DNA from: Sialis fuliginosa
Taxonomy: Eukaryota; Arthropoda; Insecta; Megaloptera; Sialidae
Direction of reading: 5' to 3'
Assembly (NCBI GenBank): GCA_961205875.1
Contig: OY540810.1
Location: 25,110,001 to 25,174,000 of the forward strand
DNA length: 64,000 nt
Below, piece by piece: positions 18,781-60,247 of the stretch (positions within the stretch are counted from its first letter, which is position 1; every line of letters begins with the position of its first letter). A model generated the notes under the pieces. It saw nothing but the letters and a program-made list of their open reading frames with translations. It did no database searches and was not told the origin of the DNA. Made by a program: the position numbers and the translations under genes.

Positions 18781-19107
18781 AGCGGAAATATGTGTATACA
18801 TATTCAGAAAGAATTCTTCTTCATCTAACATTTCCTTGATCGCCGCACGAAAGGTCGAAATTATAGATTTGGAAATGTTTCGTTTTTTTCAGTTGAATTT
18901 ATAAATTAATTAAATGTGTTTGTTTTAATTGATATCATTATGCAGAAATGTGGCTTTCGGCAGTTTTAATTCTGAATTATTAATTTAAATGTCAGAAGTT
19001 ATTTATTATTAACAATATATTAAGTCGTATTCTATTAAGAATATAGGTATTTAAGCCTTTATATGAATTTATACAATATCTAATTGTACACTGTCAAAAA
19101 TTTTTTT

Positions 19108-19783
19108 AGTAATTTTACAAAAATGTGTAGGAAGTTTTTACGCACCACAATTTTCGGAATTATGGAACACAGTTTTGTAAATTTACTATACAATTTATCA
19201 CAACTCAATTTTAAACTATTACAAATCATCTGTCGCAAAATTACTAATCATTTACTAGACTTATGTTTAGTAATATTACTGTACATTATTCGTAATTTTA
19301 CTAAGCCAAATGTTTCTAATAATTTTAGTAATTTTACAAAAATGTGTAGGAAGTTTTTACGCACCACAATTTTCGGAATTATGGAACACAGTTTTGTAAA
19401 TTTACTATACAATTTATCACAACTCAATTTTAAACTATTACAAATCATCTGTCGCAAAATTACTAATCATTTACTAGACTTATGTTTAGTAATATTACTG
19501 TACATTATTCGTAATTTTACTAAGCCAAATGTTTCTAATAATTTTAGTAATTTTACAAAAATGTGTAGGAAGTTTTTACGCACCACAATTTTCGGAATTA
19601 TGGAACACAGTTTTGTAAATTTACTATACAATTTATCACAACTCAATTTTAAACTATTACAAATCATCTGTCGCAAAATTACTAATCATTTACTAGACTT
19701 ATGTTTAGTAATATTACTGTACATTATTCGTAATTTTACTAAGCCAAATGTTTCTAATAATTTTAGTAATTTTACAAAAATTT
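19108..19783. repeat. 219-bp tandem repeat, three near-identical units plus a partial fourth
   Basis: Units start at 19108, 19327, 19546 and 19765, an exact 219-base spacing. The first three look identical to the eye. Because 219 is divisible by three, one frame stays open for 244 codons and repeats a 73-residue block; this is a by-product of the array and not a gene. Diverged continuations of the same motifs run to about 20100. Confidence 0.9.
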
Positions 19784-20349
19784 ATTGTAATTATACTAGA
19801 CAATTTATACCAATTTAGTTTAGAAAAATTACAAACTATTTGTTGCAATATTACTAACCTTTATTAAAAAATTGTTTAGTAATATTACAATACAATAGTC
19901 GGAATTTTACTAAACAAATTAGATTAAATACATTTAGTAATTTTACAACCATATATCGTAATTTTTCAACCCAACTAATACCAATTTAGTTTCGAAAAAT
20001 TACAAACTATTTGTTGCAGTATTGAATTTTTACTACCCAACTTACATCAAGTCAATTTGAAAAAAATACAAACCGCTCGTTGCAATATTACTATGCATCG
20101 GGATATAACTTGCATAGCTTTATTTCAATATCAGACTGTAATTTTACTGAAAAAAATTGTTAAATCAATGAATGCTACAACAGCGTATTTTAGTGTTAAA
20201 TATAAAATATTTATTAAATATTAATTTATTAATTATTTAATTAACAATTAAACATATGTCATTAATTATAACAGTGTTATCAATAATTTATATTATGAAA
20301 ATAATAACATAATTTAATGCTAACACAAATTTTAAATTTTTTTTGAAGA

Positions 20350-21752
20350 TTATTCTGACGTTTTGATTGCCACATAATTAATTGCCAAATCACGAGTAAT
20401 GTAGGCACGGAGTATCTTTCCAATATTCTTGGTTATATCTACTGTCTTGTTTATTTAGCATAACAATTTGTAAATCTAAAAAAAGAAAATTATTATTCAT
20501 GTCTTATAAACGAATTATATAAAATAGGGCTTATATAAAAAAATAATAATTTTATTTGTGATTACTTACCAATTTTTTTTTAAAATCAACATCATTTTTA
20601 ATTTTATCATTAAATTTAATAAAACTTTCTTCATTTTGTAGTGGAAGAATCATGTCAAATTCACTCTCAGAGTTACTGATTTCGTCACTCAAAATGCTTG
20701 TTGAATTATGAAGTTTTTCAATGACATTTTCAAGGCTTTGTAATCTGGTTGAATAATTGGTTAATTGACTTCCTAAATTTGACAAACGTTTGCCGATGCT
20801 TACAAAACAGCTCGATATGAATTGATGCAGATCTTCTGTAACAAAAAAAATCACGTTTCCAATACACATTAAAGAAAAAAAAAACGATGTATGTTTTTAC
20901 CTATTGTCATTGGTTGATTTGCACTGGTCTCGAGTTTTTCTTCAGCTTTTTTTTTTACAATCCTTTTTGGATTTAATATATTGTTTGGATCTAATCCGTT
21001 AGTGTTGTCTTCATCACTGGAAAATTCCGTTGAAGTTGACTTAATGTCAGTGTCATCAGATGGGTGACAACTTGGGATTGAAATCGATTTAGAATTCAAT
21101 TTTTTTCTTTTTGTGTGTTGACTTTTAGGATTAGATGAATCTAACATTAAAAAAAATATATTTGTTGCATATTTATAACAAAAAATTTTACCAAAAAAAA
21201 TTAAAACTACTTACGAATTTTTATACCAAGATCGTCTGTCCATTTCAATGCTACTTGACTAAATTGTTTGTTAATGAGCTCTTTATTCTTTGCAACAAAT
21301 TTGCGCTTCAGAGCCTTCTTATCAGTATCTGCTTTTTTTTTGCAGATTCTTCATTTGCTGTCGAGTATACATATGGTTTTGTTTCTAACTCAACGATTTT
21401 ATTTTCAGCTTCTTTATAAGTATCTAAAAAATTGATTAATAATATGTCAAAATATTTTTTTTGCTCATCAAAAATTAATAAAATGTAAAAAAATTAATAT
21501 TGTGGTAAAGAATTTATTTTAAAATAACATATCATTACTTACGAGCACTTCCGCGAATATCCACTAGAAATGTTGGCTATGTAGATTTGGGTGGTTCTAA
21601 ATTTTTCACCATTTCTTGCAATTCTTCGCATACATTTGGATCATCAAGCAGGCCTGGCATATATTTGCAATATACCTTATCAGAATCTTTTTCAAAATGA
21701 AGCCATGTATATATAATATAATATAATATAAGACGATATTTATGATCCATGT
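20350..21752 (-). pseudogene. Broken five-exon gene resembling DUF4806-domain proteins, carried by the transposon
   Basis: Minus-strand exons at 21543-21752, 21215-21423, 20901-21140, 20570-20835 and 20350-20475 have GT-AG introns and compatible phases. The fourth exon ends with an ILPLQNEESFIKFNDKIKND block and FKKKL. The fifth contains a KNIGKILRAYITRDLAINY block. This order resembles DUF4806 proteins of insects (a P-L-K-x-x-E-x-L helix pair, then a Gly and an R/K-x-I-L-x-x-L-x-x-x-x-LA helix). The middle part is Ser/Asp/Lys-rich. Three lesions are visible: a TAG in exon 1 (21577-21579), a one-base frameshift at a nine-T run near 21333-21341, and a TAA in exon 5 (20455-20457). Upstream exons may be missing. 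The family match is by eye. Confidence 0.55.
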
Positions 21753-22242
21753 CTATAAAAAACAAAACAAAAAGTGGGTATGTGTACTTATGTACACGCG
21801 TTAGAAGTTATACTTATTTGTCGTGAAATTTTAAAACACTTATCAAAATTTGATTACACATTTCAAATATTAAAATCTTAGTTTTGGAAAAAAATTATTT
21901 GAAACAAGAAAATATTTCTTTTGCCTTAAAATTTTAACTCCAAAAATAAAAATCATTTGTTTAGACAAATGGCTACAGCTTAAAGATGTAAGTAGGTGAA
22001 AAAGTTACCTGAATTATAACAGATATATATTCAATAAACGTTAAAAACAATTATTGGATTAAACAACAGAATTATAAAAAATCACTTGTAGCAGCATCAA
22101 TCTTTACACAACAAATTTTTAATAACGACAGTTCAAAAATCGTATTATTGCTCATACGCAGTAGCTTAGCATCGTGAGAAAATAAAATGTAACAAAATTT
22201 ACCCCTTCCGCCAGCGCGTTCACATGAAACTATGTTCTATAC

Positions 22243-23983
22243 CAGTATTTCTCAAACTTTTTGAATTGAATCACTCATAATTGTGATTAATAGCGAAATT
22301 TAATATCAATAATAATTAATAACAAGTTAATAACTTATCTCGAGTACATCTTTGAACAAAATATTATTTGTATATTTTTCGACATTAACTTAACTAACTA
22401 ATTGAGTTTACTTAAAATATTTTAAATTAAATTTAATGTGATGAGTGAGCGCGGCTTTGTTTTGATGTTGGTCAGTACTGAAAATACCATTTCGTATAAT
22501 AGGGCGAGCGGATTACAGCTATTTCGAGTACACTAACCAACCAATCGACGTTCTAGTGGCTAAAAATGATTTTATTAAATTCTTTATATTTTTCTGAGAA
22601 AAAACATCTATATACATGATATTTTTTTATGCGGTCCTTCAATAGGTACACACATTTTTTTGTTTAATAAATCTAAATCTGCATTAAAAAATCTGAAAAA
22701 ATTATGTAAGCTTCATTGGATTAAAATAAACATTTTTTGTCTCATAAACTTTTTTTTTAAAGCTATAGTTTTGAAGATAAAAAATATTTTAACTTTAAAA
22801 ATAGCGAAAAATTCGTATATTTGTGAATTTTTTTCTCGGTAACTAATTGTTCAATCAGAATAAAACATAAACAAAAAGAATCAGCCAACTTTAAACTATA
22901 ATTAGATTTTTTTTCATTTTGATTATTACTGTAATTAAATGTAAAAACTTCATTAGAGCCGAACTCACTCCTTGCGCCGTAAATCGATACCATGGCTGGC
23001 TACAATTTTCGTTTAATAGTTGAAATATTTAAATACTGGGATGAAAGTTTCAATAAAAACACTTTAGAATATTTTTATTGCACATTTATTTGTTACAATT
23101 ATTTTCTTTATTGTTACACTTATCAAAACATCTACAAACTGAACAACATTTTAAATCTAAATCCAAACAAGAGCATGTTTTAGCTGTACAAGGAAATTTT
23201 CCGCAACAAGAACAGAAATATTTTTTGTAGATGTTCTGATAAGTATAATATTATAATAAAGAAAATAATCGTGACAAATAAATGTGCAATAAAAATATTC
23301 TAAAGTGTTTTTATTGATGCATTCATCCCAGTATTTAAATATTTCAATTATTATTAAATGAATGTTGTAGCCAGCCATGGTATCGATTTACGGCGCAAAG
23401 AGTGAGTTCGGCTCTAATGAAGTTTTTACATTTAATTACAGTAATGATCAAAATGAAAAAAAATATAGTTATAGTTCAAAGTTGGCTGATTCTTTTTGTT
23501 TTTGATTTATTTTGATTGAACAATTAGTTTCCGAGAAAAAAAATCACAAATATACGAATTTTTCGCTATTTTTAAAGTATAAATATTTTTTATCTTCAAA
23601 ACAATTGATTTTAAAAAAAAGTTTATGAGACAAAAAATGTTCATTTTAATCCAATGAAGCTTACATAATTTTTTCAGATTTTTTAATGTATATAGATGTT
23701 TTTTCTCAGAAAAATATAAAGAATTTAATAAAATCATTTTTAGCCACTAGAACGTCGATTGGTCGGTTATTGTCATTTCTAAGCGAGCTAGACTCGATAA
23801 TCCGCTCGCCTATAAATAAGTTGGTTGCAAATGGCAAGAGAACTGTCATTGTTAATTCAGCGAATAGTGGACACTGTTTTCACACCAAGTAAAAAAGAAT
23901 TGTTTGCTTACTAAACTCGGTTTATGTCATCAATTTTTCTGCGACCTTCCTAGGAGTCGCGACCCACACTTTGAGAATCACTG
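22243..23983. mobile_element. Foldback hAT element (1741 bp) nested in the larger transposon
   Basis: The ends CAGTATTTCTCAAACTTT and the inverse AAAGTGTGGG...TTGAGAATCACTG match the common hAT form CAGTGnTTCTCAAA. An exact 8-bp duplication, ttctatac, flanks it (22235-22242 and 23984-23991). Most of the interior is a long palindrome, with arms about 22530-23135 and 23225-23772 (for example CCATGGCTGGCTACAA near 22991 and its inverse TTGTAGCCAGCCATGG near 23366). The short open frames in each arm mirror one another and are not genes. Confidence 0.9.
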
Positions 23984-24689
23984 TTCTATACTTGTGTCGG
24001 CATGTCAAAAGAAACGCAACAATGATTTTTTCTATGCTGGTCGGGACTTGCAAATTCGAATAAAATTAAAGGTTGTTTTACACCGGCATATGGAGCATTT
24101 ATAAAGGTTGTTTTAGGCATTTTGACCAGTTTATATATAATTCATAAATAATAATTAGCAAAGATTTACTTACTTTCAAATATAAAAAATGTTGATATGC
24201 AGATTTGAACATACCCTATTACACTTACAATTAAATTTTATCACTATTTTTTACCACAGTGAATAATTCGGTTCTTTCACAATTTTTTTTATACACTTGA
24301 TCGATTCTATGAGGTTTTTTTTATAAAACTAACATATTTCATATTCAGAAACAACATGTATATTAAAACATTTTAATAAAAAAAAAATATTTTTTTATAA
24401 TCTATACTTCATACTTGCAATTCAAGTATAAATGTTTGCTACTAATTTTACTTAGAACTGCATTCAAATTAAATTTTAAATCTGCATAAGTCACAATTTT
24501 ATAAAAATGCAAAATAAATATACCAAGTTTTATACTTGAAACTACACAGCAGAATTAGAAGATTACATAAAACTATATGATTGTAAGAGACACTAGTAAA
24601 AATATAAACAAATCTAAAGTAATTAAAGTTTTACAATTTTTCAATCACTTTTTGCAATTTGGATTACGTATTTCAGTTAGTCATTTTTT

Positions 24690-25400
24690 TGATAACTGTA
24701 GTAAGATTAGACTACAAATAGGTATAGAAATTTTACAAAATTTTAGACTTGAAATTACAAACAAGAATTGTAAAAATACATAGCGCTCATGACTTGAAAG
24801 AAATTTTGTAAAAATACAAACAGAATTTTCAAAAAAAAAGTAATGATTTGTAAATTTCCTGTAATTGTAACTGCAAGTTTCGGTTAGTAATTTTACTATT
24901 AATCTTGGTAAAATCAAAATCCGAATATGTGTAGAAATTTTACAAAGTTTTAGACTTGAAATTACAAATAAGAATTGTAAAAATACATAGCGCTCATGAC
25001 TTGAATGAATTTTTGTAAAAATGCAAACAGAATTTGAAAAAATAAATAATGATTTGTAAATTTCCAATCACTTCTTGAGATTGTAATTGCAAATTTTGGT
25101 TAGTAATTTTACAGATAAATGTGGTAAAATTAAATTCCGAATATGTGTAGAAATTTTACAAAGTTTTAGACTTAAAATTACAAACAAGAAATGTAAAAAT
25201 ACATAGCGCTCATGACTTGAATAAATTTTTGTAAAAATGCAAACTGAATTTGAAAAAATAAATAATGATTTGTAAATTTCCAATCACTTCTTGAGATTGT
25301 AATTGCAAATTTTGGTTAGTAATTTTACAGATAATTGTGGTAAAATTAAATTCCGAATATGTATGGAAATTTTACAAAACTTTAGATTTAATTCTACAAC
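24690..25400. repeat. Right subterminal tandem array, units of about 207-216 bp
   Basis: The marker ACATAGCGCTCATGACTTGA occurs at 24778, 24985 and 25201. The intervening units share GTAGAAATTTTACAAAGTTTTAGACTT and similar words, with a further partial unit after 25283. The units are less uniform than the 219-bp array on the left and carry several GTAAAATTAC-type motifs each. Confidence 0.8.
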
Positions 25401-25605
25401 TTTGAATGGTAAAATTACAACAAGTTTCTGACGAATACAAAAAATTTGTAAAATTGCAACCTGCTTAGTACTCTTGTTATTACAAATTGCAATATTACTA
25501 CGAATGCGTTTGAAAATTCCAATACAATACGAGAGTTTGTAATTTTACAAAGCAACTGCTTAGTAAAAATGTAGTAAATTTACAAAAATTTTTAACAGTG
25601 TACAA

Positions 25606-31679: not shown

Positions 31680-32180
31680 TTATAATTTGATTTATTTCTT
31701 GTAATTTTTTGACGAGACGAAACGAGACCAAGACGATATGAACTTTATTTATAAAATAATTAAAATAAAATTATATTAATTATCTATAAAATAGTTATAT
31801 TAATAATTATAAGTCTTGTTGAGAGTCTCGATTTTAAAGCATTATCAATAATAAAGAAAACACGATATTTACTTTTCTCTGTTTCGGCTACATATACGAG
31901 ACGAGATCGAGACTGTCAATTATAAAATTTGAGATCGAGATGAGATTTCAGTTACAATAACTAACACTCCACCTCGGGTTACAATCTTACTTATTGTTAG
32001 TATATGTATCTAATAATTATCGATTATTAAATCTACATATTAATTGTCATGCATTACAAATTTATTGAGTACTCTCATTATCAACTGTAAAAACTTTCAA
32101 CAAATACGAGAATTCTGAATATTATATTTACATAAGTAGAGTATTATATAAGTGATGGAGTACTTAATTAAACAATTGAG

Positions 32181-33450
32181 ACACCAAAACGACTAACCAA
32201 ATCGATATTTACAGGAAGTTAATTCAATTACTGTGAAATTAAAAAAAAAAAAAAAAATTATAAAAATTGCGAGTCCCATGGACTCCAAAACCTATAACCA
32301 AATCGATATTTATAGGAAGTTAATTAAATTACTGTGAAATTTAAAAATCAAAATTATAAAAATTGCGAGTCCCATGGACCCCAAAACCCATAACCAAATC
32401 GATATTTATAGGAAGTTAATTAAATTACTGTGAAATTTAAAAATCAAAATTATAAAAATTGCGAGTCCCATGGACCCCAAAACCCATAACCAAATCGATA
32501 TTTATGGGAAGTTAATTAAATTACTGTGAAATTTAAAAATCAAAATTATAAAAATTGCGAGTCCCATGGACCCCAAAACCCATAACCAAATCGATATTTA
32601 TAGGAAGTTAATTAAATTACTGTGAAATTTAAAAATCAAAATTATAAAAATTGCGAGTCCCATGGACCCCAAAACCCATAACCAAATCGATATTTATAGG
32701 AAGTTAATTAAATTACTGTGAAATTTAAAAATCAAAATTATAAAAATTGCGAGTCCCATGGACCCCAAAACCCATAACCAAATCGATATTTATAGGAAGT
32801 TAATTAAATTACTGTGAAATTTAAAAATCAAAATTATAAAAATTGCGAGTCCCATGGACCCCAAAACCCATAACCAAATCGATATTTATAGGAAGTTAAT
32901 TAAATTACTGTGAAATTTAAAAATCAAAATTATAAAAATTGCGAGTCCCATGGACCCCAAAACCCATAACCAAATCGATATTTATAGGAAGTTAATTAAA
33001 TTACTGTGAAATTTAAAAATCAAAATTATAAAAATTGCGAGTCCCATGGACCCCAAAACCCATAACCAAATCGATATTTATAGGAAGTTAATTAAATTAC
33101 TGTGAAATTTAAAAATCAAAATTATAAAAATTGCGAGTCCCATGGACCCCAAAACCCATAACCAAATCGATATTTATAGGAAGTTAATTAAATTACTGTG
33201 AAATTTAAAAATCAAAATTATAAAAATTGCGAGTCCCATGGACCCCAAAACCCATAACCAAATCGATATTTATAGGAAGTTAATTAAATTACTGTGAAAT
33301 TTAAAAATCAAAATTATAAAAATTGCGAGTCCCATGGACCCCAAAACCCATAACCAAATCGATATTTATAGGAAGTTAATTAAATTACTGTGAAATTTAA
33401 AAATCAAAATTATAAAAATTGCGAGTCACATGGACTTCAAAACCCATAAC
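32181..33450. repeat. Satellite array, 13 copies of a 96-bp unit
   Basis: The marker GCGAGTCCCATGGAC starts at 32269 and recurs at every 96 bases up to 33421 (13 positions). Internal units are nearly identical. The first (with an A17 run) and the last (CACATGGACTTC) are the most diverged, as is usual at array edges. Each unit holds ATCGATATTTATAGGAAG and a CCATGG palindrome. No open frame is kept, since the unit contains stops in all frames that I checked. Confidence 0.95.
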
Positions 33451-33963
33451 CCGGTACTGTACATGTATGTACATATGTACGTTCGCAGACATGTAGTATG
33501 ATTAGTTGATTATCTGTTTGTTAGAAGACGGATGTTTGAGGGTAAACGAACCGTCGTAAACATATGAATTACTTCGAGAGAATCTGTCTCACGCGTTTTT
33601 ATGAAACTATAGCAGTATCATCCGTATCACATGGCAATCGCATACATACTACAGATATTCGAGAACCCGGAACTTGTAAAGATATTGCTTACCACAACTG
33701 TTCATTTAATATGTATATAGGTACATTATAATATTATTAAAATGAATAATAAACAGGTAGATCTATTATACAATATAAAGTTTTTGAATGCTTCAAATGG
33801 GGTGGATAAGAAAAACGTCTCTATGTTAATATTTTTTTAAATAAAGCGTTATTATTATTATTATTATTATTATTGTAGTTGTTGTAGAACATTTAATTAT
33901 GATTTGATAGTTTCAGAGTAGGTACTGTGCCACTTAACCGTGTACAAATATTTTAGTTGATTA
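33451..33963. repeat. Spacer with an ATT microsatellite
   Basis: An (ATT)n tract of about nine units lies at 33849-33876, following a TTTTTTTAAATAAAGCG stretch. No gene was seen. Confidence 0.6.
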
Positions 33964-41400: not shown

Positions 41401-43311
41401 TTTAACTTTAATTAGGGTCAATACATATTTTCATTTCATTTTCTAAACAATTAAAAATATTAGTTAGTAACTAAATATCTATCTATATTAATTTAAATAT
41501 TTTTAACTTAAAAATTAAATTACATATCTTCAAAATAATAAACAGGGGCATTAACTCGAAATTATTTTTTAATAATAAAATTTCAAACATACAAACTGGA
41601 GGTAATTTTTAATATTACTTAGTACTTACCTAATAAGTACTAAAATTAATAATGATTGAAAACAGTTTTACTGTATTTTATTAAAAGAATGTACAAAGAA
41701 ATTTTGTTTATAGCATTCATTTAATTAATTTTTATTGGATCAAACTAACCATCTACCAAATGTTGTCTATAAACATGTTATTGACTTGAGAACTAACAAA
41801 AAATTCAGTAGTGTTACTACAGGAGTGACACGTAATAATAATTGTTATATGTGAGTTGATAATTATTAGGTAATAATTACAAAGAAATTGCAACGTTTAA
41901 TATTGACCGCAAACTGACGTTTAAAGTGTTTTAATTAATCAAATTAAATTAGGAAACATAACATCGCAACCGTAAGAGGTTTTAATCCCACCCACCATGT
42001 GTACAATCGTGTTAAAAAATACTTTATGGATATTATTCAATGAAATTCTAATAAAAAATAAAATCTTTGCATAATAACAAAATTATTTGGTTATATGCGT
42101 GGAAGTACTTTAACGTCTTTAGCGCCTCTAAAAAACTTTCAAATATTGTACCCAAAGTAATTTTTTAATTATCATTTTCTTTTCGTTATAAAATAAAAAA
42201 TAGTCTATTTGTAAGGCTGATGCCATTTTTTGCTCCCTCCCTCTCTTAACGTCCTAAATACGTTTTGTTTATTTAATACTTTTATTTTTTTTTGCATTTT
42301 GGCACTTTTTCAATTACGACAGATAAGCGGTCGCTTTGTACGCTTTGTGTGCCCTAATATTCATTATTTTTAAATTGGAAACAACAATTTCAATTATATT
42401 AACGTTTTCTTATTATAATCGTGAAATGCGTAATATAAAAGGGCAAAAAATTATTCAAGTTTAAAATGTAATAATTAATTTAAGCAGGTTATAGTTTAAA
42501 GTTCTGTAATAAATTTAAGTTACTTTAGTGTCTTGACTCAGGTCGAGAGATCAAGTACCTCATTACACTCATTAAAACTAAACTACATCAATGAAGGCGT
42601 TCTTAAATCGTTTCTTGTTACTTACTTTACTGTCTTATAAGAAATTACAGAAGCGGATTTGTCATTTTTCTTGCTTTAAAACATTTTGAAGATCATATGT
42701 TCAACACATAATGTAATCAATGACAATTACGTGAAATTTTATACGGTTATTTTATAATAATTTGACATCTGTTAATCGTAACCTTGAGTTATTGCAACAA
42801 TCAAATGGCTTATCGCTACATTCATACTGTTAACTTTTGAATATTTTTCAACAATTGATAACTGTTGCTACATTCAATGAACACAATAAGGCGCGCTATT
42901 TTAAAATAACTAATGTAGTATCACTGGCGCAATACCATATTCAACAAAATTTTAATGGAATTTATACTTTAAAACAACAGAATGCATACTATAAATTATT
43001 TTATCACTAATAATATTTACAAAAGAATTATATAATTTATTTAATTAGCAAAGTAATATCTGTACCTACTAATGACATTGACAAAGATAACTGTTCAAAT
43101 ATAATTCTAACACTATATTTTTCTCAGAAATATTCTTCAAGTGAATTTTAAAACATTCTAATTATTTTAATGAAAAATAATAAAAATATAATATAAAACA
43201 AGAGTTTGTTTATAAAATTTATTTATTAAAAAGATTTTTCTTCAGTGACTATCGTGTTTAATAAGTACATTATATATTTTTATTCTATTATTATACATTG
43301 AAAAATAACTC
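38415..43311. other. Region upstream of nost
   Basis: No coding exon recognised in 4.9 kb. A scrap with GGCGGTGGAACGGGTGGAGG at 38990-39040 and GGTTACGCCAATG near 39265-39280 looks like a decayed element with inverted ends. A GC-richer patch at 40860-40950 (GAGGTGGTGGATTGGGTTCC, then ATGGCGGAACAACG) could be an untranslated leader or promoter of nost, but this is only a position argument. Confidence 0.35.
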
Positions 43312-46300
43312 ATGAAGAAACTTTATGATAGAGTTACAAATTTTCAACAAGCTATACGGCAAAACATATCAAACGTGTTATTTTCACAAACTCCTGATGA
43401 TCAACAAAATCAAGAAGTTTCAAATGTCGAACCAAACCCAACAGAAGTTATTAGAGCAACAAGTACCCCTGAAAGAAATGTTGATATTAACGATAGTGAT
43501 CAAAACAAATGCAAAAATGAAAGCAGACCGTGTTCTCAGTTGAGTGACGCTTCTGAAACTTATAATATTTTAGACACATCAGCACATCTTAACCCTGATG
43601 ATGAACAACTATATCAGAATATTGTTGATATGGACGTAATCCAAGAAAAAGTTAAATCTAAAAAATGTTGTCATGTTGATAAAAACGATAGTAAAGAAAA
43701 TGACACAGGTGTGCATGATGTTGATAGCTTTGATGAAGAGTACGTTGATAACTTTGATGAAAAATATTCTAGAAGACAGAACGGAAAAGATGAAGTTAAA
43801 GAAAGATCACCATCATTAAAAATTTATACTGAAAAAGTTGAAGAAGTAATTTATGATATACCAAAAATTCAGTTTTCATTTTTAGAAAATCCAAACCGAA
43901 ACGATCGCCAAAGTATAAGTCCTGAAAGTAACAGAACTTCAATATGTAAATCTGAAATAAAAATTACATTATCACCACCAAAATCATTGATTGATTCTTG
44001 TAGTGATATTGAAAATGAAAGTAAAGAACAGGATAATGTAGTTATCATTAGAAATAACGAACAAAAAAATAATTTAATTTATTACCCAATTTTACAAACA
44101 AATGATGATAAAAGAGAATCTGATGAACCTCAGAAAAAAATCAAAAAAAGTAAATTTTCAAAAATCGATAAAAAATTTAATAAAAGCATAAACGACATAG
44201 CAAAAATATTTTCTAAACATAAAGTAAGTCTAAAAAAACATGAAAGTGATAAACAACCAGCTACTAAAATTCTTCCGTTACAAAACAAACGAAAGTCCAA
44301 ATCACTGGGTGACATAATGTCTTTAATAAAATCTGATAAAAATGAAAGTATAAAAGAGGAAGATATTACAGATTCTCAAAATACATCAAATGAGTCAAAT
44401 TGTAGTACACAAGAAGAAAAAGTTAAATATATATATAGTTCGGAACACATAGAAGAAGAAAAATGGAAATCTACATTGAAACTAACAAAAAGTCAATCTA
44501 CCAACGAAGTAGTAACAAATGAACAAGTAGTAAATGAGGAGAGTTGTCTTAAGAAAAGTAAAGAAAATACACCAGTTCATGAAAATGTATTATTAAGAGA
44601 AAATAAACTTGAAAGTAGCGATTTTCGTAAAACAAGATCACGATCTCTTATCAGTTTCGATTCAAATATCGTAATAGATGAAAACTTATCAACCAAAAAG
44701 AGTAATGTAAGAAAATCAGTATCTTCACATACAATAAACACAGTAAATACAGAAGAAAAGAAACCTATTAAAAAACATGTATCCTTAGATGCAATAGAAA
44801 TTTGTAAATCAGATGACCAAAAAAATACATCAATCGAATCAAATTCCGAACTTGAATATTGTGCAGTTCGTAAAAAAATGCCACCTCATTTAGGAAGAAT
44901 TACATTAATACGTAATCGATTATTAGGAGTCCGAGAACGTTTAACAAACACTTTGATTCATCAAGCAGCTAACCAAAGAGTTGGAGCTCAAATGGAGACT
45001 GCTACTAGTTTTGCAGAAGAATATCCACGAGCTACAGCAGCTGTAGATAAAGCAATAAAATCTACTAAATCAAAACTAGGAAAACTTAATAGTAAACTGA
45101 AAAGAAAGAAACACAAAAAGATATACGAAAGTGAATTTGATGTAACGGAAATAATTGATGACGACAGCTCTTCAATTCCATCCAAATTCCTAGATTCAAA
45201 TAGCATTATTACTTGTAGTAGTGTAAATATAAAATCTAATGAATCGAGCAGATTAAAGTCTAGTGATGATGATAACGATTTTGATTTTAAATCTTTAAAG
45301 TTAGCATTTAGGAAAAGCCGATTTATTGCAACACCTGTGCCAGAGGTAAAAATATTGGCTTTAACTGAAACAAATAATGACTAGTTTATTATTTACAATC
45401 TATAAAACAAGTTATTACAATTTATTTTATTTGTTTCAGGGACAAAATGGTTTTGATGATTTACGAAGATACGTCAAACAAGGTGGTGATTTCTGTAAAG
45501 AACTCTCAGCAATTTTAATGGAAAGGTATGATATAAATAAATAGTCAATACAAAAATGTATGAGCAATCTTCCTTAAGAGTTAAAGATTATAAATATATA
45601 CTAACAATATTTTATATATCATAATTTGTGATAGACATAAAAAATGCTAGATGCAGAATTTTGATTTCATTCCAAAAAAATTACTTTTTATTATAAAATA
45701 CAAATTTAAAATCTATTTCTATATAAATTTGTATTTATCATAATCAAGATATCACGATCTCATTTTCACAGTGTTAAATTTTGATTTCAGAGCTGAAGCC
45801 GAACAACAATATTCGAAAACATTAGCAAAACTAAGTCTACGATTAACAAGAGCAGCTCGTGCTTGCTCAGCAGAAGCTTGGCTAGCCGTCGCCCATGAGC
45901 TAGAAGCAAGAGCAAATGCTCACGCACGATGCAGCCTCGCTTTGTCGACGCGAGTAGCTCGTCCGTTACGTCGTATGACAGATACTCACCATACTAGACG
46001 TAAAACGACTGAAGCAAGCACAACCCGAGCTGCTAGAGTGCTCAATGATTGGCGAGTGGCTGAAGCAAAAGCAAAAAAACATTCCCATACATGCGCGCGT
46101 GACAATGAAAAACTACAGGATGACATCAGGTTATTATTTGTGATACTATCTAATGTTATACTGTAATATTTACTGAATATGTTTGTTGCAGATTGACTCG
46201 TAGTAATAGCTTAATTCATTTAACTCATACACATAATCAAAAAACAGTTTCTGATAAAGAAAACAATAAGGTAATTACTTTTCAATTTTATAAAAAAATT

Positions 46301-48809
46301 ACTTTTTTTTGATTTTCTTCCTTTAACCCTTTCTCTGCGGGAACCGGATTAATACGCAAGCAAAATTTCAGTACTAACTGCGGATAACGAATGCATACAC
46401 TGCATTATAATTATGATACAGACTAATAAAAATACTGTAGGCATGTCAAAACTTGATTTCCATGTAGTTGATTTTGTCTCAGACTGCGGAAAATGTCAAA
46501 CGTACGAATCTGCACACCTGAAAAATGTCGCACAGGGAGTCTAGTATGCCTAAATATATGCCACAGCGAAAGGGTTAAATAATAAATGGTAACACACTTT
46601 TATTTTTCCATTTGTCATAAAAAAACAATGTTCCCATAGTATTCAAGTAAGAGTGTTGGAATTTTATATGTAAACTTAGGACCCCCTTTTATCCTGTTGA
46701 AGGCTTTTTTTTTTAAATCCGATCTTGTCACTTTTTTTATAAATTGATCAAAGAAAATATAATCAAAAAAAACTTTCTAGTACTAGTGGAAGTGGGAATA
46801 TTTTTAACAGGTGAGTCAATGAGGACTTTTCCTTTTACAGATAGAGATATAAAATTTATTTCATTGGCAAATTTGTGGTGCACAATTTGAGAAAAATGTA
46901 TTATCTTTTAATTACTTTTCTAGCATGAAGTTAAGAAACGAAAAGCTGAAGAAGCAGTCAAAAGAGCAGATATTGAATATTACAATCTTTGCGTAAGGGC
47001 TGAGCGAGCAAGGTAAATATTTGCAACACACGTACCGGAATAAATAATTAATGATTTCATCAAATTAAATTGCAGGTTAGACTGGGAATCGGCAATCCTA
47101 CGAGGCGCTGATACTTTCCAGTCACTTGAAGAAGAACGATTAAATAGTCTTAAAGCATATTTAACATCTTATCTTGAAATAAATACTGAACTAGCCCCAG
47201 AACTAACAGAAGTATGAATTTTTATATAAAGTTATAACGTTCGTATTTATATTTTCTTATTATTTTATATTTCACAGTGTACAGAAGTTTTGAGAGGTCC
47301 AATAGATCAATACTCACCAATTTGTGATCTTCAAACGTATACTAGTTTACGACAGTCATCATTGCATGCACCAGAACAACTCTTACCTGATTTTTATTGT
47401 GAACATATTACCTTAGCAATGAATCGTGAAAGAAGAAAACAGGTATTTTACTGAATTTATTATAATAGAAAAACATTAACAGTTATCGGTTTTAGTTTTA
47501 AATTTTTAAAACATAATTGTCATTGTCAATTTATATTTTTATTAATTCTGAATTTATTTTATAATAAAATTTACAATGTAAATGATAGCGAAAGTTCTTT
47601 TCAGGCTTTAGTAAAATTACTCCATCTAATACGACAAGATTTAGAACGTGAAAGAAAATCAAAACATGGACTCGAGAATTTATCAAGAGCTATCAAACAA
47701 ACACCAAACTTTGGAAGTGATGATTCTCAACAAAATGTTAGTGAAAAACTGTATCATGTGAGTAATAATGCAATACAGAGTAAAATCTGATACATATTGT
47801 TTTAATAATTAATTCTTTACAGATGTGTTCAATGTTAACATACTTAGAAGCAGCGCGATACAAAGTACAGAGTGCTTTAGTAGAAATAGACAATAAACAA
47901 CAACGAATTAGTCACCCTTTAGCTCCTCATATCACTGTAGTTAGAGACAAATCTGGTTTACAACAAAGTATACTAAAGGTATTTATATCTTATGTGTTTA
48001 TCGAAACCTTTAGAATTTCTTCAATTATATTAAACTTGAATCGAGCAAAAAATATATTAATATCACATATTTTAGGTACCTCCTTGGTTAAGGGATGAAG
48101 CAAATAAAGCTACAACACCTTTAGAATTACCAGGACCTTGTGAAGACTGGCCTGACAGAGGAGTAGGTGACGGTAATTCAAACCAACCAGACTCAGATTT
48201 TGGTACGTATAATCATATATACTAGTAGATTAATATATGGTATAAACACTGTCATATATATATAATCATTACATTCAAAAGTAAATGACAAGTTTGCAAA
48301 AATTTTTGCATAACATAATTAGACTCATATTTGTTTATTATAATGTTTTTTACAGACAGTCATTCCATACATATTTGATGCTTTAATTGTACATATGAAA
48401 ATTGCAATAAGCAAATATTAAAAAAATAACTGAATTTTAATAAAATTAACCGAAAGATGCAATGTTACTTTTGCATGTGATAGTATGTAAATAATACAGA
48501 TTCTATTTGTTGAAATTTTTAGATGAATTTTCATCACAAAGCAGTTGTGATCGATTAGATTCAAATGAAACTGACAACCCAACGGATGCGGCAACAAATA
48601 AAATAGATGATACTAAAGAATTATCAACGGACCCGATATGTAAATGTCGTGCACTGTATGCTTATTCTGCTCGACTACCAGATGAACTAAATCTGTCTGT
48701 TGGTGATGAATTAACAGTTTACCGTCAACAAGCAGACGGATGGTGGTTAGGGGAATGTAGTGGGAAAATAGGTATTTTTCCAGCAACTTATGTAGAGGTG
48801 CAACAATGA
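43312..48809 (+). CDS. nost: Nostrin-like F-BAR and SH3 adaptor protein
   Basis: Eleven exons (43312-45345, 45440-45525, 45791-46129, 46192-46270, 46924-47012, 47076-47211, 47278-47442, 47605-47757, 47823-47978, 48076-48202, 48523-48809) join in frame to 1216 residues. From about residue 679 comes an F-BAR domain (GQNGFDDLRRYVKQGGDFCK, then ERAEAEQQYSKTLAKLS). Around 960-1080 lies an HR1-like coiled coil containing LAMNRERRKQALVKLL and YLEAARYKVQSALVE. Residues 1161-1216 form an SH3 domain with ALYAY, GWWLGE and IFPATYVE. This matches the Nostrin domain order and motifs; Nostrin binds membranes and dynamin/WASP-type partners in endocytic trafficking. Exon 1 alone encodes 678 Ser/Lys/Asn/Asp-rich residues with no recognised domain. 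The start ATG is preceded by an in-frame TAA at 43306-43308. Confidence in the family is high; the N-terminus needs transcript support. Confidence 0.92.
46327..46574. mobile_element. piggyBac-like MITE in nost intron 4 (248 bp)
   Basis: TTAA flanks (46323-46326 and 46575-46578) enclose the ends CCCTTTCTCTGCGG and the inverse of CCACAGCGAAAGGG, which pair with two differences. It has no coding capacity. It sits wholly within the 46271-46923 intron and leaves the splice sites untouched. Confidence 0.75.
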
Positions 48810-51528: not shown

Positions 51529-52199
51529 TCACTTAGATTCATTGTATGGGTTTTTTACTTTTAATTCAGATCCATCAAATTCTATATAATCGTACATGAA
51601 CTTTCGCCGAACTCTGTAGATGCAAAATTTTAATATTAACTAAAAATTCCTTATGATTTAAGATAAAAAATAAATACCTGCATTCAGCTCCGCATTTTGT
51701 ACTTCTACATTTAGGGCAGGGAAAGAAACAGCCTGGACAATGCTCATTTAAACAATCACAAATATCCTTCCTTGACTTTATATAAATACCATGATCATCA
51801 TAAAGAACATTTTGGTATTTTTTACGAGAAATATTATAATTGTGGTTTAATTTTCTCTGTTCTCTCGCACTTGTTTCTGGATTGAAATTTTCCATAAATT
51901 TCGTAGCTAATTTTCGGGTAGACATTATGCTTCTCTAAAACATATTTTCGTTCTTCAAAATTTAAATCATTACGACATATTTTAAAATTTAAATATTTCA
52001 TATAAAACAATTTTATTATAAAATTATAAAGTACCTACATAATTCAAAATTTAGATATAAATAACATAACCAATTTCAAATAAATATAAAAATTATATAT
52101 ACTAACTGTTAAAGTTCTCATATCATATGGTGATTCATTAGTATCTTTAGATTTAGATTTATCACCATCAGAACCGTTTGAATCACTATTTTTCGACAT
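51529..52199 (-). CDS. ARL14EP: ARL14 effector protein (ARL14EP)-like Cys-rich protein
   Basis: Minus-strand exons 52107-52199, 51678-51934 and 51529-51613 join in frame to 144 residues. After a Ser/Asp/Lys-rich N-terminus comes the family's conserved block: YDDHGIYIKSRKDICDCLNE, then CPGCFFPCPKCRS, KCGAECR, and RKFMYD. Eight cysteines (90, 92, 97, 100, 104, 107, 112 and 116) fit the metal-binding-like pattern of the ARF7EP/ARL14EP C-terminal domain. In vertebrates the block continues ECRCNR; here it reads ECRVRR, so the ninth cysteine is replaced by Val118, exactly at the exon 2/3 junction. Human ARL14EP links the small GTPase ARL14 to myosin 1E, and related proteins are also found with chromatin complexes; the role here is unknown. 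A second in-frame ATG (Met35, in exon 2) could give a shorter form. The gene is convergent with nost. Confidence 0.87.
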
Positions 52200-58855: not shown

Positions 58856-60247
58856 TCACACAATCACGCAGAGTATTGTAAGAAGTGTTACGATAGGTGA
58901 AACGATAATTACCATAGAACTGCTAGATTGGATCTCATTTAAGGAAACATCGGAAACTGATTTGTTTGGTTTTTTATTTTGATGTGTATTATCACGTTCA
59001 TTACCATGACCAGTTATGTCATCGCCTGAAAAAAAAAATTGAAGATGATACACACTTCTAAACATGTAATCATATTAATCATTCTCTTATATATGTATTC
59101 TCCAGTAGGGTTGTTGGAGATATGATATCGGTTTCAGATATGGAAAGGGAAATTTTTTTCTTTGGATTCGGGTATGGTTTTGGATACAGATATTTATTAC
59201 TTAATATTTTTTCTTGCGGTTTTTGTATTGGGATTCGGGCAATGAGTAGAAAAGTATCTGAAAGAATTATTATGAATACGGTTCTGGTTTCGAAGATCAG
59301 AATTTAATTATTTCAGATATGGGTTCGGTTTTGGAGAATTATCTCCATTTATATTGACATTAAAGCTACAAAAAATTTAAAAGTAAAACAAATAAAAACA
59401 AAGTTTTTACCACGATGTCCATCACCAGATCCTGAGCCTTGTGTAATGTCGTCATCATCAGGGTACGTCTCATATTCTCCTTGCCGGTATCCAGAACCTT
59501 CAACAGAATCTCCTTGCATGTAACTGTCGGACTGAGGAGCTCCCGTACTCCCCAACACGGATATTACTAATTGTCTGAGATGTCGTAACTGATCAGCGAG
59601 ATGACTGACTGGGAAATTCTCTGCTTCTACGCTTGCACTCGTGAATACTTCCGGATTGTATTTCTGCATATTAAGACTTGCGTCTACCACTGTTTTTGTG
59701 TACCTGAATATATAATAATTTAATCAGAATTACTCAAACAATTATTCAATTTTTTTCATTAATAAAACATACGGTTGCGTAAAAAAAATTGACATAAAGA
59801 AAAATGTTTTTATTAATGGATTATATGAGATATTTAACTTTGACTGTCGTTAGTTTAATGAAAATTACCATTTTGGTATTCGACATGCCAAGAACATTAT
59901 GACACCAATAGCTACAACCAAAATACACCACAAAAAATCGCTGCAATAATTTGAAATAAAATCAACACTTACTCTCCGATTCTTTCTCCATTCCAGCATT
60001 CCACAGAATCTCTAGTTTCAGCGAAAGAGTCATCTTTACACAGGTTATCAGCTAAGTTAGCGTAGAAGCCCCGACTCTTTGTCAGTGCAGACACAAAGTA
60101 CAAAAGGTGTGCATCAGGAGTTGAAGATCTTCCGTTTGTATATCTGTTGTGTGGTTTTGGTCCACCAGTTGGAATTTCTTCTTCCATATCGACGATCAAT
60201 GGATTTTCTTTATCAGACAATTGAGGATGTCCACAGGCTTGTTTTAT
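58856..60247 (-). CDS. dally: Glypican, C-terminal part (dally/GPC3-GPC5-like)
   Basis: Three minus-strand exons, 59973-60247, 59411-59703 and 58856-59025, join in frame (phases 2 and 1) into about 246 residues ending at the TGA at 58858-58856. The first begins with a KQACGHP motif and contains LCKDDSF and ECWNGERIGEYTKTVV, the conserved cysteine sites at the end of the glypican core. Next comes HLADQLRHLRQLV, most like the IIDKLKHINQLL segment of GPC3/GPC5. An acidic linker follows with SG dipeptides (EGSGY and QGSGSGDG), the usual heparan sulfate attachment form, and finally a C-terminal hydrophobic tail (MVIIVSPIVTLLTILCVIV) behind SSSS, as in GPI signals. Glypicans are cell-surface co-receptors for Wnt, Hedgehog and BMP. 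The signal peptide and the N-terminal two thirds are not in the window. Glypican is secure; dally versus dally-like is probable only. Confidence 0.85.

Follow-up and report, generated by a model that had tools for sequence, protein, structure and literature searches.

The stretch of Sialis fuliginosa DNA considered here (contig OY540810.1, positions 25,110,001 to 25,174,000; 64 kb in all and called the window below, with element coordinates given as positions within it) contains at 19089..25600 a complete, 6512-bp copy of a non-autonomous CACTA-like transposon, both ends of which are common to all 20 other genomic copies fetched from the host assembly (392,097,322 bases in 20 contigs). We consider it rather probable that this copy belongs to a very young, high-copy, non-autonomous CACTA/EnSpm-like (Pack-CACTA-like) family that is moved in trans and carries a gene and a hAT-like insert as passengers. 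From a reading of the ends, the left terminal inverted repeat, CACTGTCAAAAATTTTT, lies at 19089..19105 (plus strand) and the right one, with the reverse complement CACTGTTAAAAATTTTT, at 25584..25600 (minus strand); the right repeat is a near-perfect inverted partner of the left one, and both begin with CACTGT. The element is bordered by the two copies of a TA target-site duplication (19087..19088 and 25601..25602), duplications of this 2-bp length being present in 19 of the 20 fetched copies. The TTG/CAA symmetry seen beyond the TA in the flanks of the window copy is absent from the other fetched copies.

The first-pass annotation of the window had described tandem arrays, dense in short words, just inside each end, and both features are confirmed. 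The left array (19104..19781) comprises 3.1 units of 219 bp that are 100% identical, and degenerate repeats of 57-66 bp extend it up to about 20090; the right array (24676..25391) comprises 3.4 units of 216 bp that are 88% alike. Within the element we counted 22 occurrences of the palindromic word GTAANNTTAC, as compared with a mean of 0.27 and a maximum of 3 in 500 first-order Markov resamples, and the word is confined to the outer kilobase or so of each side, with 16 occurrences in 19089-20180, none in 20181-24600 and 6 in 24601-25600. Only one of the 23 occurrences in the whole window lies outside the element. Comparison of the two arrays revealed no long inverted copies of each other, the GTAANNTTAC word being common to both.

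The genomic family

The left 312 bp of the element are found unchanged at no fewer than 40 genomic places, the window included (40 of 167 candidates were scored), and the fetched copies represent 20 of the 39 other places, so that 21 copies could be compared. A 34-base left-end pattern, allowing up to two mismatches, detected 164 left ends (83 + 81), with no match for the reversed control. All 20 fetched copies have both ends, spaced 6144-6574 bp apart and each carrying CACTGT; CACTA itself is not present. This agrees with the earlier description of a single unit with paired ends at 19089 and 25600, and other genomic copies do indeed end at the same two points. End pairing was examined for 42 of the 164 left ends (contigs C1-C3) by comparing the left and right matches listed, and 40 of the 42 were found to pair with a right end, 39 of them separated by 6082-6532 bp and the remaining one by 8573 bp. 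The first-pass annotation had looked to full-length copies, and to a transposase shared by longer ones; the former were readily collected, and a longer, transposase-bearing version of the family was not found among these 42 left ends. The 8573-bp copy (L029, C1:609232-618204) was rejected as an autonomous long form, as it is a full family copy whose right array is interrupted by a foreign insert of 2.2 kb. This insert, which we take to be PIF/Harbinger-like, has inverted ends TAGTGGAGAG...CTCTCCACTA and an apparent 3-bp TTA duplication.

Another end pattern gave 669 matches (controls 106 and 91), a figure that is not a copy count because three of the 20 end pieces fetched (L041, L047 and L059) lie outside the family, the other 17 belonging to it; the 164 left ends are used instead. 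L041 and L047, both on C1, represent another repeat in which CACTGTCAAAAATTTTT is internal, the sequences being alike on both sides of CACTGT. The impression that many right ends lack a left end was mostly wrong: L060 turned out to be complete, with a single-base difference in its left end, and further left ends of this kind were found. On C1, beyond 19 Mb, five right ends have no partner among the left ends listed. The terminal pattern had no matches in viral contigs.

The copies compared are very similar. Pairwise differences among the 21 copies average 0.27% and reach at most 0.53% (210 pairs, gaps excluded), and L016 and L019, located at different places, are distinguished by one single-base gap and zero substitutions. 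L060, which was chosen on other grounds, shares 99.6-99.8% identity with the window copy over long aligned stretches. Nine of the 21 copies, that of the window included, lack 67 bp near 23685 and represent one subfamily. A marker string of the left-array unit is present twice in 19 copies and three times in two copies. The left array has 7 variable sites in 1092 across copies, a low value that we do not read as selection because the copies had been chosen by identity at the left end.

Cargo gene, nested insert and neighbouring features

A six-frame Pfam scan of the element (stops written as X, E values to 0.1) recognized no transposase, and the sole match (P53_TAD, E = 0.02) is below its cut-off and is taken as chance; the first-pass annotation had likewise seen no recognizable transposase in the cargo. 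The cargo is instead a decayed multi-exon gene (20342..21751, minus strand), delineated by splice-like borders and stop counts, with putative exons at about 21751-21543, 21423-21215, 21140-20901, 20835-20570 and 20475-20342. Their GT-AG-type borders are our own reading, and some exon ends in the stop and variation counts are one or two bases off. The last two exons, joined across the assumed splice and with one stop as X, show a tentative similarity to DUF4806 (PF16064; E = 5.9e-4, 20.5 bits against a cut-off of 25). The parts before and after that stop, each searched alone against Pfam, gave no DUF4806 match, and seven open pieces of the element searched separately gave no confident Pfam family. 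The PF16064 profile had no matches over the genome, yet the positive control was silent too, and the parent gene of the cargo was not found. The exon-4 protein gave 12 pattern matches in viral contigs, none of them a relative.

Exon 1 is interrupted by one or more stops in each frame in all 21 copies; an open frame spans exon 2 in two of them (L023 and L026), exon 3 in nine and exon 4 in all; for exon 5, each frame contains two or more stops throughout, and one of these stops may mark the natural end of the gene. No copy is open through all putative exons, and 19 of 923 sites vary in exons 1-4 versus 19 of 1012 in adjoining sequence. Because no copy is open throughout and variation is as high in the exons as in the sequence adjoining them, the cargo of the 21 copies read is a decayed passenger. 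It had previously been described as a host-like multi-exon gene: the multi-exon structure stands, an intact host gene does not, since the frames are broken in all 21 copies and the resemblance to DUF4806 is tentative.

A different role for this gene has to be considered, in which the family would be a two-component transposon, the DUF4806-like gene its own accessory, TNPA-like DNA-binding protein, and the copies read its defective members. The presence of the multi-exon cargo in all 21 copies would suit such a role, and published work, cited here and below from those sections of each source that were accessible, adds some encouragement. Maize Spm requires two proteins, TNPA and TNPD, both essential, of which TNPA binds DNA (PMC1636069); a table rich in transposase domains gives DUF4806 counts of 69 and 54 for two Hydra genomes and of 6, 0, 1, 0 and 0 for five further species (PMC7642931), and the domain is enriched in a beetle (PMC13270666). 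However, none of the 21 copies is open through the exons, which vary like their surroundings, the DUF4806 similarity falls short of the cut-off, and a link between DUF4806 and CACTA elements was not found in the accessible sections of the open-licence literature. We therefore regard an accessory gene as rather unlikely.

The second passenger is a nested hAT-like insert (22243..23983) with CAG...CTG ends and an 8-bp duplication, TTCTATAC, at 22235-22242 and 23984-23991. Its junctions are present in all 21 copies, and the insert was therefore in place before these copies spread. Inside it, a long inverted (fold-back) repeat at 22530..23773, its arms (88, 353 and 99 nt) matching at 92-98% identity, surrounds a small, cysteine-rich open frame on the minus strand (23086-23250), and the word TGGGTCGCG is found near the right end of the insert.

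Outside the element, the window contains a 96-bp tandem array at 32180-33451 (13.2 copies, 98% alike) and, on the minus strand at 51578-51934, an open frame in which the ARF7EP_C domain is recognized (E = 1e-27, above cut-off). Host-gene exons at 43309-48806 and 59352-60247 correspond to an SH3 protein and a glypican, the SH3 and glypican matches being above cut-off; the SH3 protein has in addition a weak FCH (F-BAR) match that is below cut-off, and a 691-amino-acid frame at 43309-45381 matches no Pfam family. The glypican, SH3 and ARF7EP_C matches identify the host as an animal.

Target sites and empty sites

The flanks of the fetched copies record the target sites in some detail. Matching 2-bp duplications were observed in 19 of the 20 copies, as TA/TA in 14, TG/TG in two, CA/CA in two and CG/CG in one, all of which are pyrimidine-purine (YR) steps; in none of the 20 are the flanks equal at 3 bp. 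TA/TA flanks were also observed at L029 and L060. As most duplications are TA (14 of 20), a Tc1/mariner-type element might be envisaged. The target of Tc1/mariner elements is strictly TA, however, and the TG, CA and CG duplications of five of the 20 copies disfavour this assignment; the CACTGT ends, the word-dense subterminal arrays of about 1 kb and the lack of any six-frame transposase match likewise speak against it, and we hold it to be very improbable.

Empty sites were sought by comparing 21 joined flank pairs with the fetched DNA, which gave a clear result for L010. This copy is inserted inside a repeat, other copies of which run through the joined flanks with a single TG, as expected of an empty site: L023 (93%) and L024 (89%) match with no gap, L016 (86%) with one gap position and L017 (85%) with two. 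The case of L027 is less clear. Its joined flanks match 31 genome places, of which 27 cross the junction at 69-85% identity, some with gaps as judged by length; two of the remaining matches are L027's own flanks and two end at or just beyond the junction. An apparent empty site of L020 was not counted, as its matches are neighbouring repeat copies in its own locus with 16-44 gap positions across the junction. At the locus of the window copy, an empty site should read TTGTACAA, as the first-pass annotation had proposed. The tandem arrays at both ends could bring to mind segmental duplication or the spread of a satellite without any transposition, but the L010 empty site refutes this, and the fixed ends, differing flanks and 2-bp duplications likewise contradict it.

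Transposase and classification

A class of transposase that might act on the family is encoded elsewhere in the same genome. A first-look filter located Transposase_21 (PF02992) at a minimum of two places, on C10 and C14, and tblastn with the open reading frame of L030 (C10) detected eight places, with long open frames on C10, C11, C14 and C13 (748, 933, 826 and 716 amino acids, respectively), the other four places being broken or short. The C11 product matches PF02992, and the aligned stretch of C13 matches no Pfam family. L030 (C10:1739801-1749800) contains a 3605-bp Tnp2 element with 31-nt inverted arms (87%), (A)ACTGTTTTTAAATAATTT and CACTGTTTTTAATTATTTT, and is the only Tnp2 locus found between matched ends; a CACTGT-type end thus accompanies a Tnp2 gene in the host genome. 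The word GTAANNTTAC does not occur in the 10 kb read at L030, and no family end was seen in the 4 kb read at L035. We also observed a 99% inverted repeat with 670-nt arms just outside the Tnp2 element of L030 (7974-10000) and, at L031, an 86-bp tandem array (2113-2767, 7.7 copies) that adjoins the 826-amino-acid open Tnp2 frame.

The CACTGT ends, the 2-bp duplications, the word-dense subterminal arrays and the presence in the same genome of a Tnp2 element with CACTGT-type ends support assignment of the family to the CACTA-like superfamily, as the first-pass annotation had supposed. It had also considered the element a candidate for an undescribed mobile system, and this suggestion is not upheld: the window copy is one member of a family with 164 left ends, a real mobile element of broadly known type, with no feature to set it apart as a novel mobile system.

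Several observations weigh against the reading of a very young, non-autonomous CACTA-like family moved in trans. None of the Tnp2 loci has this family's ends in the stretches read, so that the superfamily assignment rests on structure. The ends of L030 have only CACTGT in common with the family, the first C being lost at the left, and its flanks (CG/TG) are unmatched; the CACTGT at 7086 of L031 (C14:1726301-1736300) has no matching left end; and that at 510 of L033, read with 2.5 kb more (L061), is probably due to chance, as it has no partner end. The Pfam scans of the element could have missed an intron-split transposase. Among the copies themselves, L011 is flanked by TA/AT without a matching duplication, and two of the 42 tested left ends have no partner among the right ends listed. 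The DUF4806 match lies under its cut-off, and differences in homopolymer length in the cargo are possibly in part assembly errors. Finally, the age estimate covers only copies with an identical left end, for which reason the family overall may be somewhat older than the copies read.

How such a family would move can be outlined by analogy with known elements. The transposase supplied in trans would most likely be of the Tnp2 (Transposase_21) class and would bind the palindromic GTAANNTTAC words of both subterminal arrays, much as maize TNPA binds subterminal repeats. Cleavage would then occur at CACTGT, followed by insertion at a YR step through a 2-bp staggered cut, and repair from the sister copy could account for gain in copy number. 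The multi-exon gene and the nested hAT-like insert would have been taken in before the burst, as passengers.

CACTA/EnSpm elements have CAC- (CACTA/CACTG-like) inverted ends and a target-site duplication of 2-3 bp. Their subterminal regions are rich in short direct and inverted repeats (PMC8978399). The animal TRC branch (SmTRC1 of Schistosoma and the insect TRCs) is described as having Transposase_21, inverted ends, 2-bp direct repeats and CCC ends (PMC1636069, PMC4298943). The Sialis family resembles this branch in its inverted ends with 2-bp direct repeats, in the Transposase_21-class enzyme, found in the Sialis genome outside the element, and in having a tandem-repeat region, as SmTRC1 does (PMC1636069). 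Unlike the TRC elements, it has CACTGT instead of CCC ends (PMC1636069), no transposase within the family element and paired 216-219-bp arrays of palindromic words. Spongebob, a CACTA element of insects and Hydra, is likewise represented by non-autonomous insect copies and has a 2-bp duplication in its Hydra form, but it has CCC ends, measures about 0.4-0.5 kb in insects and shows no gene cargo in the sections of the source that were accessible (PMC4298943). Plant Pack-CACTA and other Pack-TYPE elements carry gene fragments, and their gene-derived sequence between non-autonomous CACTA ends is a close parallel to the cargo described here (PMC13317346, PMC8903248); the Sialis family differs from them in its animal host, in a parent gene that was not located and in the near-uniform 6.1-6.5 kb form of the tested copies. 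Animal Pack-TIRs similarly hold non-transposon sequence between the ends of terminal-inverted-repeat DNA transposons, and a survey of 100 animal genomes lists 370 of them, 323 being hAT or TcMariner, with four multicopy Pack-TIRs marked in a figure legend (PMC8277862). A published account of the present family was not found in the accessible sections of the open-licence literature.

Two aspects of the family may be of wider use. With no substitutions between L016 and L019, this animal CACTA-like family is so recent that assays for ongoing movement are feasible, and it offers sharp ends, a YR preference and one-word arrays. In addition, it provides a candidate for a multi-copy, gene-carrying element in an insect; the accessible sections of the Pack-TIR survey record none for its reference genomes of insects and a single family, Ssk-FB4, for populations of flies (PMC8277862). 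A bolder proposal, to which we give only a small chance, is that this is a still-moving animal Pack-CACTA-like family in which a DUF4806-type gene, whether accessory or repeatedly captured, would be a recurrent partner of CACTGT-ended elements and the arrays of palindromic words would serve as a loading platform for the transposase.

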